Shown: piece by piece, positions 21,001 through 61,394 of the stretch
How positions within the stretch are numbered: position 1 is the first letter of the stretch
Layout of the letters: each line of letters opens with the position of its first letter
Origin: Rhizophagus irregularis
Lineage: Eukaryota > Glomeromycota > Glomeromycetes > Glomerales > Glomeraceae
Assembly: GCF_026210795.1 (NCBI RefSeq)
Contig: NC_089439.1
Location: forward strand, 4,340,001 to 4,404,000
DNA: 64,000 nucleotides
Reading direction: 5' to 3'
Made by a program: the position numbers and the translations under genes
Notes under the pieces: generated by a model
Database searches by the model: none
Seen by the model: the letters and a program-made list of their open reading frames with translations, nothing else
What the model was told of the DNA's origin: nothing

Positions 21001-24000
21001 TGCAGGCACGGAAGATATTGCATCAGCAGCTTTTACAAAAGATCCTACAGTTGCAAATTTTCCTAAAATAACTTTTTGGTAACGACTAACGAGTTAAAGA
21101 CAATGGATTTCATAGTTGGCTTCTCCAATGAGTTTGTTAATTGAATTTGTAAATTCTCCCTTCTTGCAATTGTCATAATTCTTGATCTGGCTTGTTCATT
21201 TGAGGTATTCTGAACCGAAAGTTCGTTAGAACTAGTTAGAACCAGTTAGAACTGGTTAAACTCCCAAGACTCAATGATCAAAAGCCTCTAAATCTAAAGC
21301 TTCTATTAAGAAACTTTCTAATGCAATCCCCTGCCTCATCAAGACCGCACAATAATTGACAGAACATATCACAAAGATCTCAGAGATTTCGTGTAATTAA
21401 AATCTCTTGAAAGATTTGAAAAAAATAGACATTATCAAATACGAAAATATGTTGTTCGACATTTTTCGTCAAGTCAAATTTATTAAATCTGAAAGTATTT
21501 CAGTCATAGTACAGTCAGACCTCCATATAATCAAAGACCACACACGAACGTGCATCGTTCAATACAATTTATTGTGTTAGATTTATTAAATCCAAAAGCA
21601 TGAATACAGTCAAACCTCCACATAATCACTCTATATATATAAGAACGCCTCCTTATAAGACAATCGAGTTTCATGATATTCGGACAAAATTTAAAACTTA
21701 ATTTCTTAATTGAAGTATTCGAACACTTGAGCTCGATAAGACTATCGACTTTTAATTCAGTTAATTCTGTTAACTCTGGACAATCACAAACAGATAAACT
21801 CTTAAGTTTAGACATAATTGGGAATAATTGGAATTCTGTTATTAATCGCTTAAGTTTTCACACTGCTGAACAATCAATCTAGTTTGAACAAGAGCGTCAA
21901 CTACGAAATTATAGAAATTTTTTTTGTTCATTAGAAGGTGAAAACAACGTGAAGAAAGTTATCAAATTAGTACGCGACTACGTGAATTTCTATTCATGCA
22001 CGATGCCTAAACTGTATAGATAAATTTCACGTGATCATATAAACCGTGCCTACAATCAGGTGCTAGCCAAATTAACACAAGAACTTACATAATACGATGT
22101 ATGCAAAAATCATAGCTTTCACACTTTTTTAACTGCAACTCTTAAAAAATTCACACAATTAACATGGAGTAAGTTTTTTTTAGGTCTATTTTAAAAGAAA
22201 TTTTTATATGTATTTAGCATTTTCTAACCTTTAGTGATTTTTTTTAGTGAAATTCTTTTAAGCTTTGATTTAGCAAAATAGTTCTCTGATTTCTCTTTGC
22301 TATAATGATACCAGCAATATCTGCATTCACAAGTTCCAATAATATAACTTTTGACCGACTATTTGACATTATCTCTATTCATAATAGAAAAACTATTAGT
22401 CCCTTTTAACAATGACATAATTAATGTAATTAATGTAATCACATATTTTTTATTGATCAAAATTTTTTTCTCAACCATTAATATGTTCGTTCATATCATG
22501 ACAAGAGAAGGAAATAGTCACTTACCGATAGTGTGATTTCAATCCAAAACAATAAAATAATTTTGAGGGAAAGGTATTTGGTATTCGGTAACGAGCTACA
22601 AGGCTGTGAGCGAAAATCTGATGGAACATTCGCAAAGACAGCATGCTATTTTTTATATAGAATTATGTTCTATCCATCTTTAGACCAGGAAATAAAGAAC
22701 ATATCTGCGAGAAAAGTTACTTTTTAGCCTTTTATTGCTATCACGAAAGGATAATGACGTGAAGATACCATTACCTAAACGCCTCTAAGTCGGCCTCCTT
22801 GCTATGAAGATTTTTTTTTTACCTGACTTATTACTAGTTGTATAAAAATAGAGTTTTTCTTTACGTTGTCACATATTCCTTATTAAGCCTTATTATTAAA
22901 TTGGACGAAAATATGATGAAACAAATAATGTTGATGACATAAAGTAGATCAATGATGAATATTTATAATTTGAGGCCTCGTTGGTATTTACAAGTAAGTC
23001 AAATTTTTAATTGATACTTGCTGGATTATTGTACAAAATTCCTCTGCGTTAGTAGTAATTTCTCTCATTGACAAATTACACTTTATTCATTTGGATCGGA
23101 TAGTACTATTGTTGAATATCAATTACAGCAACAAATACGTTTAAGTAGAACAACTTTCAATGACCGGTTACCAATTTGTGGAAACTCAACCGCTACGTGT
23201 CTTACAGCAATTTCAAAATGGAAAGCATGAACTTAGTGAAATCAATAATAAGACGTGATGGCCATATGATTTCATAAGCTCTAAGATATGACGGTCTAAA
23301 ACTCACTTCTATAGATCTTGATCAAGCATTTTACCATGTATCTTCATGAAAATAATTTAAATATTTTATGCTAAACCTTTGAACAATTGGTTTAGTAATA
23401 CGTGTTCAGGATCCTAATCATGCTAGGAAATTTCTGTTAAGACTGATCCTTATTTAGCGCAACATCAGTTCGATATTTAGTTTTCTTTAACTAATTAATC
23501 ACCGCTTAAGAATGATGGATGATATTGCAGCATATAGAACTTTTCTTCAAGAGAGAATCAATAAAGAATTGTAGCAAGTTAATCACCAGCCCCCAAACTA
23601 GAGCACAATAATAAGTGTTATCAAAGATGTCTCACCATCCTTCCCTAGCTCCTCTATTTTAAACTACTAGCTAAAAGATAGAATGTGCCCTCTGTCTGTA
23701 TTCCCATCACACTGAAAACAATGTTTAAATAATAATAAAGAAATTCAATCAGGTATCGAAACGAACTCTTGATTTATCTTTTTAGTGAGCAATTTATTTT
23801 TATTAGAACTAAATATAATTTGATTTATTAATATTATTATATTTATATTATTAGGTAACTACGATTATAGTCAGAAACGAATTGGTGGATCCTCCTTTCT
23901 CATTCCACCTTCTATTAATCCTTAATCTTCTACCTCAATACTAACTTCTTTATCGTCATACCAACTACAACTCATATCACACACATTTCTTGTAATCCTT

Positions 24001-26410: not shown

Positions 26411-27671
26411 CTAAAGTTGCCTGCCAAAACTCTACAGGCTATTGTCGAAATGTCGAAACTAAAACCTGTAGAAATGCCGAAATGCCGAAATAGTTTCGAC
26501 ATGTCAAAATTGTCAAAACCTAAAAATATTACGTTTCACGTAATAACTCGGCGTCCAATGATCGTAGAAAGATGCACCATAGCTCGTTGGAATCGTCTCA
26601 TAACGACGAGTCGAATGGTGGGTAGATCGTCTTTCTACGATCACTGGATGCCGAGATATTGAGCGAAACGTCAAAAATCAGCATTTTGTATTTTGCGATA
26701 CTGCGCCATTTGACGTTTCACTTAATAACTCGGCATCCAATGATCGTAGAAAGATGCACCATAGCTCGTTGGAATCGTCTCATATCGACGAGTCGAATGG
26801 TGGTTAAATCATCTTTCTACGATCATTGGATGCCGAGATAATAGACGAAACGTCAAACGGCGCAGTAGCGCAAAATACAAAATGCCGATTTTTGACGTTT
26901 CGCTCAATATCTCGGCATCCAGTGATCGTAGAAAGACGATTAGCAACCATTCGACTCGTCGTTATGAGACGATTCCAACGAGCTATGGTGCATCTTTCTA
27001 CGATCACTGGATGCCGAGTTATTAAGTGAAACGTCAAATGGCGCAGTATCGCAAAATACAAAATGCCGATTTTTGACGTTTCGCTTAATATCTCGGCATC
27101 CAGTGATCGTAGAAAGACGATTTAGCCACCATTCGACTCGTCGTTATGAGACGATTCCAACGAGCTATGGTGCATCTTTCTACGATCATTGGATGCCGAG
27201 TTATTAAGTGAAACGTCAAATGGCGCAGTATCGCAAAATACAAAATGCCGATTTTTGACGTTTCGCTTAATATCTCGGCATCCAGTGATCGTAGAAAGAC
27301 GATTTAGCCACCATTCGACTCGTCGTTATGAGACGATTCCAACGAGCTATGGTGCATCTTTCTACGATCATTGGATGCCGAGTTATTAAGTGAAACGTCA
27401 AATGGCGCAGTATCGCAAAATACAAAATGCCGATTTTTGACGTTTCGCTTAATATCTCGGCATCCAGTGATCGTAGAAAGACGATTTAGCCACCATTCGA
27501 CTCGTCGTTATGAGACGATTCCAACGAGCTATAGTGCATCTTTCTATGATCATTGGACGCGGAGTTATTACGTGAAATGTAATATTTTTAGGTTTCGACA
27601 ATTTTGACATGTCAAAATAGTTTTGACAATTTTGACATGCCGAAACTCCCTAATTTCGGCAGGGAACTTTA
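26411..27671. mobile_element. Fold-back element made of ~181-bp palindromic tandem units
   Basis: Inverted ends CTAAAGTTGCCTGCC (26411) and GGCAGGGAACTTTA (to 27671) are flanked by the 7-bp repeat ATTATAA (26404-26410 and 27672-27678). Inside, two units in one orientation (from ~26535 and ~26715) meet at least four in the other (starts near 26910, 27091, 27271, 27452; spacing 180-181 bp). Each unit is itself a palindrome: CTCGGCATCCAGTGATCGTA faces TACGATCATTGGATGCCGAG. Subterminal TTTCGACATGTCAAAA-type words also mirror each other. Open frames here are repeat artefacts. It resembles fold-back transposons with satellite-like arms. Confidence 0.85.
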
Positions 27672-36113: not shown

Positions 36114-39100
36114 GATCTCGACTTCATAAGAAGTAGCGTTCCTTTCAAGCTGAGACATAAGACTACACACTTCTCAATTATACGCTATCTACCAACTCAT
36201 ACACCTTCCCATCTCCTTTAACTGCAAATACACCAAATAAAAATCCTCGTTGCACACCAAACACCTTTGATCTCAACTTCATAAGAATTTAACGTTCCTT
36301 CCAAGCCAAGACACTAATACTAATTATAACGCTATCCGTCAACTATAACCTTCCCCATCTTTAACCACAAATACATCAAATAATAAATCTCGTTGCACAT
36401 CAAACTCAACTTCATCAATAAGGAATTTAACGTTCCTTCTACACCACAAGGCAGAGAAATAATAGAACACATTCAATTATACATTTATCCATCAACTCAT
36501 ATTTTTCCTCATTTTCCCTAACTATACAAGATAAAAAAGAAAAATACATCGAATAATAATCCATGTTACACATCAAACACTCCTGATCTCGTTTCTCCAC
36601 ATCATATAACCAAGGAATAAATAGAACATACTCTATTATATGTTACTCATCAACTCGTACACTTTCCCATCACTTTTAACTACAAATACATCAAATGGTG
36701 ATCCTCGTCCTACACTAAACACTTGATAACAATTTCATAGAAAATTTAACATTCCTTCCAAGCTAAGACATAAATACTACACATTCAATTATACGCTACT
36801 ATCAACTACCCTAACTACGCAATATAAGAAAGAAAAAATACATCAGATTATATTTCTCATTACACACAAAACACTCTTGATCACAATAAGGTATTAAACC
36901 TTCATTACTATAACAATGAAGGCACGGAAGATATTGCATCAGCAGCTTTTATAAAAGAACCTACAGTTGCAAATTTCCTTAAAATAACTTTTTGGTAACG
37001 ACTAGCGAGTTCAAGACGATGAGTTTCACAATTGGCTTCTCCAATGAGTTCATTCACGCTTGTTAATTGAATTTATAAATTCTCCCTTCTTGCAATTGTC
37101 ATAATTCTTGATCTGGCTTGTTCATTTGAGATATTCCGAACTGAAAGTTCGTTAGAACTAGTTAGAACCAGTTAGAACTGGTTAAACTCCCAAGACTCAA
37201 TAATCAAAAGCCTCTAAATCTAAAACTTCTATTAAGAAACTTTCTAATGCAATCCCCTGCCTCATCAAAGACCGCACAATAATTGACAGAACATATCACA
37301 AAGATCTCAGAGATTTCGTGTAATTAAAATCTCTTGAAAGATTTGGAAAAAATAGACATCATCAAATACGAAAATATGTTGTTCGACATATTTCGTCAAG
37401 TCAAATTTATTAAATCTGAAAGTATTTCAGTAATAGTACAGTCAGACCTCCATATATCAAAGACCACACAGAGCGTGCATCGTTCAATACAATTTATTGT
37501 GTTAGATTTATTAAATCCAAAAGCATGAATACAGTCAAACCTCCACATAATCACTCTATATAAGAACGCCTCCTTATAAGCACTTAATTTTAATAATTGG
37601 GAATAATTGGGATTCTGTTATTAATCACTTAAGTTTTCACACTGCTGAACAATCAACCTAGTTAGAATAAGAGCGTCAACTACGAAATTATAGAAATTTT
37701 TTTTGTTCATTAGAAGGTGAAAACAACGTGAAGAAAGTTATCAAATTAAGTACGCGACTACGTGAATTTCTATTCATGCACGATGCCTAAACTGTATAGA
37801 TAAATTTCACGTGATCATATAAACCGTGCCTACAATCAGGTGCTAGCCAAATTAACACAAGAACTTACATAATACGATGTATGCAAAAATCATAGCTTTC
37901 ACACTTTTTTAACTGCAACTCTTAAAAAATTCACACAATTAACATGGAGTAAGTTTTTTTTAGGTCTATTTTAAAAGAAATTTTTATATGTATTTAGCAT
38001 TTTCTAACCTTTAGTGATTTTTTTTAGTGAAATTCTTTTAAGCTTTGATTTAGCAAAAATAGTTCTCTGATTTCTCTTTGCTATAATGATACCAGCAATA
38101 TCTGCATTCACAAGTTCCAATAATATAACTTTTGACCGACTATTTGACATTATCTCTATTCATAATAGAAAAACTTAGTCCCTTTTAACAATGACATAAT
38201 TAATGTAATTAATATGTAATCACATATTTTTTATTGATCAAAATGTAAAGAAATTCAATTGAAACTTTTTTCTCAACCATTAATATGTTCGCTCATATCA
38301 TGACAAGAGAATGAAATAGTCAACTTACCGATAGTGTGATTTCAATCCAAAACAATATATAATTTTGAGGGAAAGGTATTTGGTATTTGGTAACGAGCTA
38401 CTAGGCTGTGAGCGAAAATCTGATGGAACATTCGCAAAGACAGCATGCTATTTTTTATATAGAATTATGTTCTATCCATATTTAGACCAGGAAATAAAGA
38501 ATATATCTGCGAGAAAAGTTACTTTTTAGCCTTTTATTGCTATCACGAAAGGATAATGACGTGAAGATACCATTACTTAAACGCCTCTAAGTCGGCCTCC
38601 TTGCTATGAAGATTTTTTTTTTACCTGACTTATTACTAGTTGTATAAAAATAGAGTTTTTCTTTACGTTGTCACATATTCCTTATTAAGCCTTATTATTA
38701 AATTGGACGAAAATATGATGAAACAAATAATGGTGATGACATAAAGTAGATCAATGATGAATATTTATAATTTGAGGCCTCGTTGAGTATTTACAAGTAA
38801 GTCAAATTTTTAATTGATACTTGCTGGATTATTGTACAAAATTCCTCTGCGTTAGTAGTAATTTCTCTCATTGACAAATCACACTTTATTCATTTGGATC
38901 GGATAGTAACATTGTTGAATATCAATTACAGCAACAAATACGTTTAAGTAGAACAACTTTCAATGACCGGTTACCAATTTGTGAAAACTCAACCGCTACG
39001 TGTCTTACAGCCATTTCAAAATGGAAAGCATGAACTTAGTGAAATCAATAATAAGACGTAATGACCATATGATTTCATAAGCTCTAAGATATGATGGTCT

Positions 39101-55048: not shown

Positions 55049-55920
55049 TTTCTTATATTTAAGGATATAATATATTTATAATTTATTTGATGGGAAATAG
55101 AGATATCAGTCAAAGACCGATGGATATCCCCAACTAATAAGTAAGATCATTAGGAGTACTGCAATATCCAATAGGATTAATGCTACTAATACTGATTTTA
55201 ATATTGGTGGATATCTCATTCGGAATATTTTATATTGAATATTTTATTGAAATTCATTAAATAATCAAGCATAGACTAAATAACTAAAAATAATATAGTG
55301 TTTAAAGTATATTCATAAGTCAGAAATTATAAACTAATAAAATTATGATATATTAATAAATTTATCAAGATTTGTCTACTTTGCAGAAATAAAAAGTTGT
55401 TTTAATGGCTCCCTTTCTAAATTTTTTAATGAATTTTAATTCTTCTTTTTTATATCAAATTTATTCTCTTGCTTAAAAAAAAAAAATTTTTTTCTTTGAT
55501 CTAAATTGAATACTAGACAGTAGTCATCTTTATTACTAATTTAAAGAAAAAATTATTGAATATTCATTTTCCGCCTAATGATTTTTAGAAGTTCATATAC
55601 CTATTATATATTCTGATTTGTAATTTTGCTGTGCAACAATGAGGCTTGATGATCGACATAAATTCCGGACATGCAGCCAAAATTATGTGCAGATCGGCAT
55701 ATATTCATGCAATGCATGACATATATATCCGTTAATGAAAAAAAAAGAAAAAAAAAGATATTTGCATTATCTTTTCAGTTAGAGAGAATTTTGACCTAAT
55801 TGGATAATAATGTCCTATAAAGGTAAAAATCATATATAGCATGAACATTTAATATAATTAGTATTCTTAAACTTATAAACAACTTGCAATAAGTTTCAAG
55901 TAGCACCAAGGAATCTGAAG
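55049..55920. other. Region between P450 and the second microexon array
   Basis: AT-rich, no gene. The last bases before 55921 (CACCAAGGAATCTGAAG followed by GTAAAT) make a plausible exon end feeding the array. Its frame (STKESE) is open only back to a TAA at 55890 and has no ATG. Confidence 0.4.
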
Positions 55921-58036
55921 GTAAATATAATATATTAAACGAGCTGAGACATCAAAAATTTTTATTTAATTATTAAATAAAAATTATTTGTAAATAATTT
56001 AAATAGTAATATACATATACAATTTAAACTAACTATATTGTGTAAATAATTTAGCTCGTAAGTTTATTAATAGATATATAATTGAATAACAATGGAGTTA
56101 CTTATTTTTGTTATACCCATATAACTAAATAATTCGTTATTAATACTATAGTTTGTAAGTTAAATAGTTCTTTACTTAATTATTTTACTTAATATTCAAA
56201 TAACTGACTAAATTCTTTGTTTAAATAACTATTTAATAATTAATTATATTACAGACAGTAAGTTTCAATATTTAAAAATTATATTTATTTGTTTAATAAT
56301 TTATAATAACTCAGCTAATTATATTCTTAATTTAAATAATTAGATTGTAAGTGTTTTATTTAATTAACAGTAAATACTTTTGTATTATATTTATATCTAA
56401 CCAATTAATAATTAATACAGGGTGTAAGTTATATGCATGAATTTATATTTCTATTATTTATATAAGCTAACTAAACTATATTTACAAAATTATTGGTAAT
56501 CTCTTTTAGTTAGTAAGTTATAAGTTATTTATTGATTCTTCTATACTTATTTATATGATATTTGCATAATTTAAACTAACTAATTCTATGTATTTAATAA
56601 TGTAGAGCGTAAGTTAATTATTTAACTCTACATATAATTTAAACTAACTAAATTATTAATTAAAAAATTATTTATAATATAGGAAGTGAGTTATTTATTA
56701 TTCTATTATACATATTTATATAATATTTACATATAACTTAAACTAACTAACTTCTTTATTTAAAAAATTATTATGTAATTTCTTTTAGCTGGTAAGTTAT
56801 GAGTTATTTGATCCACGTTTATATAATACTTACTTGTAATTTAAACTAACTAAATTCTTTATTTAATAATAATATAGAGAGTACGTCATTATTTATTCTA
56901 TTGTTACATATTTATATAATATTCACATATAATTAAGCTAACTAAATTCTCTTAAAAAAATTACTTAATAATAGAGAGTAAGTTGTTTATTTAATTCTAT
57001 TACATATTTTATATAACATTTACTTATAATTTAAACTAACTAAATTCTTTATTTTAATATATAGAGTGTAAGTTTTTTATTTAATTCTATTATTATGTAT
57101 TTGTATAATCTTTACATATAATATAAACTAATTAAATTCTTTATTTAAAAAATATAGTTCGTAAGTTATTCATTTAGTTCTGATATTATTTACATATGAT
57201 TTAAACTAATTAAATTCTTCATTTAAAATTATTTAATAATATAGAGAGTAAGTATTTAATCCTATTATTACTTATTTATTTAATATTTATAATAATTTAA
57301 ACTAATTAAATTCTTTATTTAACAAAATATATAATATTATAGATAGTAAGTTATTTATTTAATTCTATTATTATTTATATAATATTTACTTATAATTTAA
57401 ACTAACTAAATCCTTTATTTAAAAATAATTAAATAATATAGTTCGTAAGTTATTTATTTAATTCTATTATTACATATTTATATAATATTTAAGCTAACTA
57501 ATTCTTTATTCTTATTAAAATAGGGAGTAAGTTATTTATTTAATTCTATTATTATATGGTTATATAATATTTACATATAATTTGAACTAACTAATTCTTT
57601 ATTAAAAAAATGATATAATAATAGAGAGTAAGTTATTTAATTCATTCTATTATTACATATTTATATAATATTTACATATAATTAAACTAACTAAATTTTT
57701 TATTTTTTAATAATATAGCATGTAAATTATTTATTTAATTCTATTATTGCTTATTTATGTAATATTTACTTATAATTTAAACTAACTTTTATTAAAATTA
57801 TTTAATAATATAGGGAGTAAGCTATTTCATTCTATTACAAGTATAACATATTTATATAATAATATTTAAGTATAATTTAAACTAACTAAATTCTTTATTT
57901 AAAAAATTGGTTAATAATATAGATAGTAAGTTATTTATTTAATTCTATTATTATTACATCTTATATAATATTTACATGTAATTTATACTAACTAAATTCT
58001 TTAATTAAACAATATAGAGTGTAAGTTATTTAATTA

Positions 58037-58300
58037 AGGGTTTGAAATTTATACGCAGGTGCGTAGCAACGCACCTCCTTATATTATATGTAAAAGTCAA
58101 AATTTGTATTCTAACCCTTTTTAGTCTTATAAGTAAAATTGTAGAGCAGGCAAAAATACATATGGGGATGTGTACTTTAAAAGTTTTATAATAAGTACAT
58201 AAGGTTTGCGCTGCATTTATTCAAAAAAAACGGAATTTATGATATCACGTGATCTTTAATTATTGGTGCAACGGCTTGCGTAAAATTATTATTTCCTTTA
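58037..58300. mobile_element. ~260-bp insertion in a micro-intron of array 2
   Basis: The intron between AGT 58018 and CTG 58371 is interrupted by unrelated sequence starting AGGGTTTGAAATTTATACGC. It contains the hairpin AGGTGCGTAGCAACGCACCT and ends near TTATTTCCTT. Array-type sequence resumes at about 58300. Probably a small mobile element; borders are approximate. Confidence 0.55.
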
Positions 58301-58596
58301 ATTAATTCTATTACATATTTATATAATATTTGCTTATAACCTATCTATTTATTAAAAAATTATTTTGTAGCTGGTAAGTTATAAGCTATTTAATTGATTC
58401 TATTATTACATATCATATTCATATATAATTTAAACTAACTAAATTCTTTAATTAATAATATAGCTCGTAAGTTATTTATTTAATTCTATTATTAAATATT
58501 TATATAACATTTATAAATAATTTAAATTAACTAAATTTCTTTATTTCTTTATTTAAAAAATTATTTAATATAAATAGTTCGTAAGTTATTCATTTA

Positions 58597-59201
58597 ATTG
58601 CCGGTCCGTCACTCAACGGTACAAAATTAATTTGTAGATCCGGCGCAGATTTTATATGAATTACGTTAATTGGCATATTTTGATGTCGATTTTGTCCCAC
58701 AAGGTCACGTTTAAATGTAACGATGACTCACCAATCAATAACATTAAACGTGAATAAGCCACAAAAAAAATTTTTTTATCGTTCGATATAGAATTTAACA
58801 AGTTTACCTTGGAGGAAGTCACCATTCCACCTTATATTTTAGCTAAGATAAGATTTTTTATACACGAATTTTGCAAATTTTACGAGGTTTTTTTTTACAC
58901 TATTGAAAAATATATATTATTTTTTTACCAAATTAACAAAATAACAAAAAAAAAATATATTTTTTTATTTTTCTTTTTTAGTTTTTTTTTGGCACACCTT
59001 GATCCTACCGGTTTTGGAAAACACACCCAGGTAATGTAATACCTTTTTCTAGCAAATTTTTGAAGTATTTATGTTGTTGTGACGTGTTTTTAAGATAGTG
59101 CAAACACCATTCTAGAGCAATAGTATTTAATATATAAAAGTCCGTCGAAATTAATTATAGATTGCCGATCATTTTGTACCGTTGAGTGGTGGACCGGCAA
59201 T
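58597..59201. mobile_element. 605-bp TA-flanked MITE inside a micro-intron
   Basis: 31-bp inverted ends (ATTGCCGGTCCGTCACTCAA... at 58597-58627 versus the complement of 59171-59201) with two mismatches. Both are flanked by TA. It lies between donor 58581 and acceptor 59276. The corresponding intron of array 1 (336-422) is an empty site, giving a clean presence/absence comparison. The ORF at 58809-59039 within it is anonymous. A Tc1/mariner-type origin is inferred from the TA duplication. Confidence 0.85.
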
Positions 59202-60192
59202 TAATTCTATATTACTTACGTATAATTTAAACTAACTAAATTCTTTATATTCAAAAATTATTATTTAATAATATAGAGTGTAAGTTATTTATTTAATTCT
59301 ATTGGTATTTGCATATAATTTAACTAACTAAATTCTTTATTTTCTACATAATATAGTTCGTAAGTTATTTATTTAATTCTATTATTATTTAAATATAATT
59401 TCAACTAACTAAATTCTTTATTTAAAAAATTATTTAATAATATAGAGTGTAAGTTATTTTAATTTATTCTATTATTACACATAAGTATTTGCATATAATC
59501 TAATTAACTAAATTCTTTATTTAAAAAATTATTTTATAATTTCTTTTAGGGCGTAAGTTATAAGTTATTTATTCAATTTTTATTATAATACTTGCAACTA
59601 ACTAAATTCTTTATTTAAAAAATTATTTAATAATATAGAGAGTAAGTTATTTATTTAATTCTATTATTACTTATTGTGATAATTATATATAATTTAAACT
59701 AACTAATTTCTTTATTTAAAAATCATTTAATAATATAGAGAGTAAGTTAATTTATTTAATTCATTGACTTATAATTTAAACTAATTAAATTCTTTATTTT
59801 AAAAATTATTTAATAATATAGATAGTAAGTTATTTAAATTACATATTTATATATATTTATATAATATTTGCATATAATTTAATTTAACAAAATTCTTTAT
59901 TTATAAAAATCATCTAATGATATAGATTGTAAGTTATTTATTGTTTCTATTATTATATTATATATATAATATTTGTTTGTTAACTAAATTCTTTATTTAA
60001 ATAATTATCTTTTACTTTAGTTGGTAAGTTTGTGAATTATAGGTTTTTATATATATTTATACAAAAAACTAAGACTTATATTATATTAAATTTCTATTTG
60101 AATTTTAGAGTAAGTGTTTTTAATTTTAATTTTAAATTTTAGCATAAATTTTAATATATACTTTATTAATATTTAATTGTTTAAATTCATAG

Positions 60193-61394
60193 ATTTGGAA
60201 AAAGTGGAAATACAACTATAGATGAATTTATTTATGAAAAAAATTTAAGATGGATTCCTTATAATAAATTTAAAAATGTTGAATATTTTAGTAAAGGAGG
60301 ATTTGGTGTTATATATAAAGCTATTTGGTTAAATAATAGTGGTAATAAAGAAGTAATTCTTAAATGTCATAATAATTTAAATGAAAATTTAGATGAATTT
60401 TTAAATGAGGTATGAAAAGTTTATTATTTATTTTTTAATATAAATTATAATTTTATCTATACTAATATATTTATATATATTTTATTATTTATAGTGGAAG
60501 TGTCATGTAAGTTTTTTAAACTCATATGATATTATTAATTTTTATGGATTTACAGAAAATCCAGATACTTTAAAATATATGGTAGTAATGGATTATGCAA
60601 GCAAAGGTAATTTAAGAGAAAATTTAATAAGAGTAATCAACTATAATTGGAAACAAAAATTATATATGTTGTATGAAATTATTACCGGACTTAGTGATAT
60701 ACATGAACAACATCTTATTCATTGTGATTTTCATGATGGAAATATTTTAAATCATGAAGATAAAAGTGAGGATAAACTTTATGTTTGTGATTTAGGATTA
60801 TGTCAACCTGTAAAATCATTATTGAAGGAACATAGTATTTATGGTGTTGTACCATTTATGGCACCTGAAGTATTAAGAGGCAAATCTTATACTCCAGCTA
60901 GTGATGTATACAGTTTTTCTATGATTATGTGGGAATTTACATCTGGAGTACCACCGTTTAATGACAGAGCACATGATTTTAAACTTAGTTTAAGTATTTG
61001 TGAAGGTGAGCGTCCTGAAATTATTGAAAATACCCCACAATGCTATGTTGATTTGATGAAAAAATGTTGGGATGGAGATCCGTTAAAAAGACCATCTTCT
61101 AAAGAAGTCTTAAATATTATTGGAGAATGGATTTTTCTTCCTTATGATAAGAAACTTGAAGACATTAATGAAGAATTAAAATGCAAGATTATGAAATTTA
61201 TAAATGCACCAATTGGGTATAACAATCTTACTACTGAATCTCATCCACAAGCATGTTGTACAAGTCGCTTACTTGATTTTAATAGTAAAAAATTGAATGA
61301 AATTCTTGAAAGTAAAAATTCACAAGCTAGTGTACAAGTGAGTGAAATGCTTGTAAGTGAAGATTTGAATGAATTTATGGTTAATTTGAAGTAA
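60193..61394 (+). CDS. TKL-type protein kinase 2 (kinase-domain exons)
   Basis: Exons 60193-60409 and 60495-61394 flank an 85-nt intron and have the same phase structure as kinase 1. FGKSGNTTIDEFI is followed by the glycine loop KGGFGVIYK, VILK lysine, HCDFHDGN loop, DLG and a normal MAPEV, so unlike kinase 1 its activation segment is canonical. The C-lobe has SDVYSFSMIMWE and KRPS. The tail differs, ending VSEDLNEFMVNLK. The first in-frame ATG (60579) lies after the glycine loop, so translation must start upstream through the microexon array or an unseen exon. Protein identity to kinase 1 is high by eye. Function unknown; signalling inferred from the family. Confidence 0.88.

Follow-up and report, generated by a model that had tools for sequence, protein, structure and literature searches.

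Whether a protein leader can be encoded with a single codon per exon is the question raised by a locus of Rhizophagus irregularis, which lies in a 64,000-nucleotide (nt) stretch of contig NC_089439.1 (positions 4,340,001 to 4,404,000 of the forward strand; hereafter the window, with position 1 as its first letter). Here, a protein kinase exon is preceded by a long array of intron-like units, which leave only three nucleotides between each acceptor and the following donor and which an earlier note on this DNA took to be introns separated by exons. We consider it highly probable that the array would form a coding leader of the kinase gene, with one codon per exon and with all of the exons constitutively included, in order, by sequential splicing. 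At the level of the DNA sequence, our analyses establish the anatomy of the array, the invariance of its exon length, a stop avoidance that is specific to neighboring triplets, the agreement in phase between its 5′ and 3′ ends, and its recurrence across a kinase family.

Anatomy of the kinase locus

The candidate kinase gene (55810–61394, + strand, as are all of its exons) would comprise 39 exons, namely two 5′ exons, 34 exons of 3 nt, one exon of 1 nt, and two kinase exons, and would be open from ATG to TAA. Concatenation of these exons gives a 419-residue open frame, with the TAA ending at 61394. Exon 1 (ATGTCCTATAAAG; 55810–55822), which is similar to ATG exons found at other arrays, and exon 2 (V-S-S-S-T-K-E-S-E plus 1 nt; 55894–55920) both end in phase 1; these two exons, as well as the putative start codon, were assigned by comparing loci.

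The array itself (56055–60023) consists of thirty-four 3-nt exons with 33 introns between them. The first bases of these exons are 56055, 56152, 56255, 56344, 56421, 56510, 56606, 56683, 56789, 56878, 56975, and 57065 (exons 1 to 12); 57158, 57245, 57343, 57442, 57524, 57625, 57719, 57814, 57923, 58018, 58371, and 58464 (exons 13 to 24); and 58578, 59277, 59357, 59446, 59550, 59639, 59739, 59822, 59926, and 60021 (exons 25 to 34). Consistent with the count given in the earlier note, our scan of the window for YAG-NNN-GT junctions found exactly 34 of them between 56055 and 60023, always with a spacing of 3 nt. The introns, by comparison, vary in length, with 31 of the 33 spanning 74–111 nt and the other two (58021–58370, 350 nt; 58581–59276, 696 nt) being enlarged by insertions. 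The longer of the two holds an element delimited by eye (58600–59198, no strand assigned), which is bounded by ∼28-nt terminal inverted repeats with two mismatches (GCCGGTCC...GGACCGGC) and leaves the splice sites undamaged, and the shorter one holds a second insertion with approximate limits, also set by eye, of 58035–58300 (no strand assigned).

Downstream of the array, a 1-nt exon (A; 60109) connects the leader frame with the frame of kinase exon 1 (A|FGKSGNTTIDEFI...FLNE; 60193–60409), which is followed by kinase exon 2 (60495–61394, through the stop TAA). In the kinase phase, all of the codons that straddle introns are open and read LYNWFKRTEKKFQNIRKTWNKSALQFQWQKNNF-E-FGKSGN. The triplets had been said to run into FEFGK; the open reading stands, whereas the run is possible only through the 1-nt exon, which was absent from that account, as were the two 5′ exons supplying the ATG and the recurrence across the kinase family.

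The predicted product matches PF07714 (PK_Tyr_Ser-Thr) over residues 79–327, scoring 138.2 bits where the cut-off is 23.1, and kinase exon 2 carries the protein kinase domain (PF07714/PF00069). By eye, it contains EVILKC, HCDFHDGN, and DLG, which correspond to the catalytic Lys, HxD, and DxG motifs, respectively. The phase-1 leader is rich in tryptophan (W, 7.7%) and hydrophilic (with R at 11.6% and D at 8.5%), and it would presumably be translated as a spacer or an interaction segment of that character; it may act as a tether, a spacer, or a recognition segment. In 28 arrays, kinase-phase NNY codons almost always have T as their third base (AAT, 75 vs AAC, 2; GAT, 86 vs GAC, 1).

An intronless retrocopy of the joined leader, sought with one pattern allowing up to two mismatches, had no exact match; three of its six two-mismatch matches are TTAGATTTGG, which we read as the genomic acceptor beside a kinase exon, and another two-mismatch match (L044) was set aside as a chance match. 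A contiguous DNA pattern for ALxDWF had no matches. A protein search with the phase-1 leader matched 11 Rhizophagus kinases, none carrying the leader, and nothing scored in a protein search with the other-frame leader.

Exon length, neighboring triplets, and phase

The contrast between a fixed exon and a drifting intron, which the earlier note described for this locus, extends to the genome as a whole. We searched 146.7 megabases in 32 contigs with an exact pattern, AATATAG-Nk-GTAAGTTATTT, along with a reversed-pattern control. A spacing of k=3 gave 1,389 matches (control, 1), whereas k=0–2 gave 10 (control, 0) and k=4–33 gave 17 (control, 9), with k=6 in ten of the latter and k=9 in one. Similarly, a splice-site path search that left exon length free returned 3-nt exons 921 times, against 16 other exons of up to 54 nt (four of 1 nt, two of 4 nt, four of 6 nt, and six singles); this tally includes the tail of a second array in the window, which is also present in L025. 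The same search returned 53 apparent exons of 80–263 nt, many about one unit long, which we interpret as weak introns that were missed or as insertions. Across 30 arrays, the 53 unit-to-unit gaps of 130–250 nt contain a weak AG-N3-GT/GC in 30 cases, another donor in 6, and none in 17, and a further 26 gaps exceed 250 nt. In 15 of the 17 regions fetched first, the nearest YAG lies exactly 3 nt 5′ of GTAAGT at 448 of 491 sites; the remaining two regions (L011 and L022) have no array by our rule.

Within the introns, the modal spacings of three motif pairs cover only 26%, 48%, and 52% of cases, and the modal intron length covers 7%. Unit length therefore drifts far more in the intron than in the near-fixed 3-nt exon. 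A CTAAC, TTAAC, or CTAAT motif stands 12–75 nt before the acceptor in 853 of 1,023 introns.

Neighboring triplets were examined through the codon formed by the last base of one triplet and the first two bases of the next. This analysis covered 28 arrays (15 from L009–L025, 12 from L026–L037, and that of the window) and, for all lags, introns of 60–125 nt only, so that the 53 gaps of 130–250 nt and the 26 longer ones were omitted. In the kinase phase, a single stop occurs among 1,023 neighbor codons, compared to a mean of 51.2 and a minimum of 36 in 2,000 shuffles, and this lone stop lies in a 6-unit fragment (L036). The deficit is also seen (i) among the 398 distinct neighbor pairs, a count that discounts recent duplications (1 stop vs 21.8 expected; minimum, 9), and (ii) with shuffling confined within arrays (1 stop vs 47.7 expected; minimum, 29). 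Moreover, none of the 17 arrays in which one or more stops would be expected has any between neighbors. In the other phase across junctions, stops are not avoided (148 vs 131 expected). While the stop-freedom of 34 codons at one locus is weak evidence, as the earlier note had said, the same test becomes decisive with 28 arrays.

No avoidance is seen between triplets that are not immediate neighbors, with 48 stops in 924 codons at lag 2 (44.9 expected), 35 in 747 at lag 4 (37.5 expected), and 37 in 676 at lag 5 (35.2 expected). At lag 3, there is an excess (53 in 830; 39.5 expected) that matches the top value among 1,000 shuffles, with distinct pairs giving 28 stops against 26.1 expected. Because avoidance is confined to lag 1, selection appears to act on each triplet as joined to the very next one, which implies that every exon is included, in order. 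Constitutive, in-order inclusion of all of the triplets would thus be the simplest reading.

This result bears directly on the possibility of a combinatorial generator, in which free skipping of symmetric exons would let one gene produce many versions of the leader. Every 3-nt exon is symmetric, so any skip would preserve the frame; variation of this type has been reported for schistosome micro-exon genes (PMC5825161); and one database protein, P0005, looks exon-skipped. However, common and useful skipping predicts stop avoidance at lags 2 to 5, where none is seen. The lag test argues against such skipping as the main mode, and we consider a generator of this kind improbable.

The phase of the leader can also be set from the flanking exons. 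Exons 1 and 2 have a summed length of 1 modulo 3 in 14 arrays (eight parsed automatically and six by hand), although exon 2 alone spans 24–138 nt, and the ATG would therefore run into the kinase-phase frame. The frame proposed in the earlier note matches the one set by these 5′ ATG exons. The parse was applied to 28 rows, of which eight were clean, one (L028) gave phase 0, and 19 had no automatic result; for six of the 19, boundaries were placed by eye in a manual reading, which makes them less independent, and 13 are left without a parse. Among the first units, an ATT followed by a GG-initial triplet, which supplies the W of an A-L-x-D/N-W start, is found in 21 of 29 rows, several of the remaining rows starting within an array.

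At the 3′ end, a 1-nt exon is recognized in 23 of 30 arrays and not in the other seven, and its base is A in all 23; among the 15 array-bearing regions of the first fetch, 13 have one such exon. The triplet directly before it ends in G or A in 19 of 19 arrays and never in T, which would form TAA.

The second array in the window belongs to a paralogue at its start, likewise on the + strand. The last twelve 3-nt exons of this paralogue (CTG CTC TTC AGT TTC AGT GGC AGA AGA ATA ATT TTG; 124–1210) are followed by a 1-nt exon A (1300), kinase exon 1 (1388–1604), and kinase exon 2 through its stop (1684–2592), this last exon being supported by its translation and having hand-counted coordinates. Its array extends upstream beyond the window, with 35 triplets recognized in all (L025). 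The 12 triplets within the window and the 1-nt A stand in the same order as the final 12 triplets and the 1-nt A of the 56055–60023 array. Over 19 matched units of the two paralogues, exon bases are identical at 57 of 57 positions, and over 18 introns, 1,475 of 1,557 aligned bases are identical (82 mismatches), with 190 gap columns. The comparison covered units chosen for their matching triplets and excluded the middle of the arrays, where the two differ by turnover.

Taken with exon length and phase, these comparisons speak to a noncoding explanation, in which the array would be a satellite of intron-like units within a large intron or upstream of the gene, the kinase would have its start in its own exon, and homogenization of the units would keep the splice-like motifs conserved. 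The units are indeed tandem and AT-rich and multiply by block duplication, and FGKSGN is the exact start of two NCBI models labeled partial (P0007 and P0008). Against this, (i) the stop avoidance is both neighbor-specific and phase-specific, (ii) the exon length is fixed while spacings within the introns drift, (iii) the triplet order of the paralogues is identical across 12 exons, and (iv) the 5′ ATG exons stand in a matching phase. In a plain satellite, spacing and cross-unit codons would be unconstrained, and here neither is. A plain satellite, which according to the earlier note would be expected to drift in spacer length as well, is excluded by these four observations, and we give the satellite explanation in general next to no credence.

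Recurrence across the kinase family and competing readings

The genome contains at least 150 relatives of the kinase exon, and exact array matches lie upstream of all 11 that were listed for contigs 1 and 2. Named relatives are R. irregularis and R. diaphanus proteins. L043, which was selected from the kinase list alone with its array unseen, has 26 triplets followed by a 1-nt A. Thirty arrays comprise 1,171 pattern units, two of which are overlapping artefacts, and the longest array has 82 recognized units (L033). Joined readings of the first-fetched arrays, from which a rule had eliminated two unit types considered spurious, contain a single stop (L015), which falls at a 198-nt gap holding an extra, weak AG-N3-GT unit. 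Since the exact junction pattern catches 261 of 1,159 known units, its 1,389 genome matches suggest a total of about 6,000 3-nt exons.

Repeated blocks of triplets are visible in L014 and L018, which points to array growth by block duplication. The middle of the leader is hypervariable in both length and sequence, whereas its two ends are alike across loci. Such variability would be expected of a neutral ratchet, in which the intron-plus-codon unit multiplies in tandem and is tolerated as an unconstrained spacer, with selection only for stop-freedom and splicing. However, the recurrent A-L-x-D/N-W start and the high content of W, R, and D hint at constraint. We regard the odds of such neutrality as evenly balanced; it is compatible with the coding-leader explanation and addresses the purpose of the array, not its mechanism.

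A different reading would place the triplets in the other frame (phase 0, with one intact codon per triplet), with a 5-nt exon AGTAA and a hydrophobic L/I/G-rich leader, or would have both frames used in different isoforms. In-triplet stops are indeed few in that frame (3 of 1,023), and leaders of this type are borne by the database proteins P0005 and P0006. However, triplets starting with TA or TG are rare regardless of whether they are stops (3 for the three stop types vs 6 for the five non-stop types; GT-initial triplets, 6), so stop triplets are no rarer than other TA/TG-initial ones. AG|TA and AG|TG would mimic a false 5′ splice site beside the acceptor, which plausibly depletes such triplets. 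Dual-frame coding, an idea prompted by the few other-frame stops, was accordingly dropped, as this depletion explains their rarity without coding. Further, the order-based stop avoidance belongs to the phase-1 frame, which is also the frame fed by the ATG exons. We hold an other-frame leader to be very improbable. Apart from this, the leaders of P0005 and P0006 are noted to be rich in L, I, and G.

Several observations nonetheless weigh against the phase-1 coding leader that we favor. The leaders of P0005 and P0006 resemble other-frame triplets and end in SK-FGK, an ending that would require AGTAA in place of the 1-nt A. At L046, whose kinase exon is that of P0005 (100% over 73 residues), the other-frame triplets resemble the end of the P0005 leader only when some exons are omitted, and they differ further upstream. 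A weaker kinase relative at C2:331217 (51% identity) has no exact array match nearby, and at L020, a broken kinase exon is present with no 1-nt exon recognized. The automatic parse of L028 gives a discordant phase 0; this locus fits phase 1, by eye, only from a second ATG and is excluded from the 14 arrays above. Exon length has exceptions in L045 (two 2-nt exons and one 0-nt exon) and in L031 (two 4-nt exons), and arrays of this sort may be decaying genes. Between the window paralogues, the contrast in substitution between exons and introns is marginal on its own (p about 0.05), and their kinases are fast-evolving, with a ratio of nonsynonymous to synonymous substitution rates of 0.66; constraint on the protein is thus moderate, and some kinase copies may, given this ratio, be decaying.

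In L045 (C4:4735600–4738400), the 0-nt exon belongs to the unit at 762, where an AG is directly followed by GTAAGT, beside the two 2-nt exons in seemingly recent duplicated blocks.

Proposed splicing mechanism and known systems

Under the coding-leader explanation, each ∼98-nt unit would be a short intron (GTAAGT 5′ splice site, CTAAC-like branch site, and TAG 3′ splice site) plus a 3-nt exon. Each such exon would be in phase 1 on both sides, with codons straddling introns (one base plus the next two), and the final 1-nt exon would couple the leader to the kinase frame. Because a 3′ splice site and the next 5′ splice site are only 3 nt apart, their simultaneous use would hardly be possible, and removal of the introns one by one is likely. 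The short introns, strong GTAAGT donors, and branch motifs fit intron definition, which is usual in fungi. Recognition would therefore most likely follow intron definition, with the introns excised in sequence; every excision would extend the growing exon by a codon, at whose end a functional 5′ splice site would remain, in a recursive-splicing-like ratchet that deposits a codon per step. Arrays would lengthen or shorten through duplication or loss of intron-plus-codon cassettes, with the frame kept and with selection holding the joined frame stop-free. We infer from the DNA that present-day RNA is spliced in single-codon steps, and likewise the order of intron removal.

We lean, with modest confidence, toward the same account for the family at large, namely that thousands of single-codon exons (in arrays of up to ∼80, in at least 150 kinase genes) are constitutively included through stepwise removal of adjacent short introns, one codon being deposited per step, and that evolution of the N-terminus proceeds as intron-plus-codon cassettes are gained and lost. 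If so, (i) spliceosomes would handle dozens of serial 3-nt exons with no evolutionary trace of skipping; (ii) the arrays would be a natural system in which to test intron definition, the ordering of splicing, and exons of 1 nt; (iii) the N-termini of a large fungal kinase family would be lost or misread in annotation, as a few database models show; (iv) protein N-termini could lengthen residue by residue without a frameshift; and (v) ideas on the minimum size of a spliceable exon would be challenged. To our knowledge, this would be, if RNA confirms it, the most extreme exon fragmentation known.

In schistosome micro-exon genes, ∼80% of the coding region lies in exons of 6–36 base pairs (bp) (PMC5825161). 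The kinase genes are similar in that a coding part, here the leader and not the whole protein, is built mostly of runs of very short symmetric exons, in a family-wide manner (PMC5825161). They differ in that the exons are nearly all 3 nt long (921 of the 937 exons of up to 54 nt), that arrays reach 82 units, and that a kinase domain is attached. Since the exons are of 3 nt and not of 6–36 bp, we do not class these genes with the schistosome type. In addition, schistosome micro-exon genes are variably spliced, whereas the arrays of this other organism bear, in their stop pattern, a footprint of constitutive inclusion.

The exons of aphid bicycle genes are longer than 3 nt. The bicycle/megacycle genes form a large family with many unusually small internal exons, nearly all in one phase, and one gene has >100 microexons (PMC9168663). 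The kinase family likewise is large and has many tiny same-phase exons, whereas bicycle genes encode putative gall effectors, and single-codon exons are not mentioned in the parts of that paper covered (PMC9168663). Isolated exons of 1 nt or 3 nt are described in Arabidopsis APC11, Drosophila homothorax, and Fusarium CYP621A (PMC4674806, PMC7392893, PMC12940212); they indicate that spliceosomes can include exons of such sizes, although they are reported singly, compared with dozens in series here. Ratchet points of recursive splicing also juxtapose a 3′ and a 5′ splice site and involve stepwise, ordered removal (PMC13149111, PMC8605326), and the 0-nt AG|GTAAGT unit of L045 is like them. However, ratchet points lie in long introns and leave nothing in the mRNA, whereas the kinase arrays would keep 3 nt per step and have introns of ∼95 nt. 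We regard the kinase arrays as a new and extreme form of micro-exon gene, whose mode of splicing may turn out to be categorically new.

Among the best-ranked matches listed from the open-licence literature (titles and abstract starts), we found no description of single-codon exon arrays. The main text of the Rhizophagus genome paper (PMC10234402) contains none of the terms microexon, micro-exon, short exon, and small exon, and the parts covered of two Glomeromycotina papers (PMC8786786, PMC11333574) hold nothing comparable. The published R. irregularis DAOM197198 resource includes Nanopore RNA reads (PMC10234402), and public long-read RNA of this isolate is available under PRJNA885267, a project named in that paper.

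Elsewhere in the window, a 182-bp unit is repeated in tandem at 26709–27577 (4.8 copies; 92% matches), and a 10-bp tandem repeat (GTTAGAACTA, 3.9 copies) occurs at both 21225–21262 and 37151–37188. The occurrence of this repeat twice, 16 kb apart, suggests that the GTTAGAACTA repeats belong to two copies of one longer repeat.

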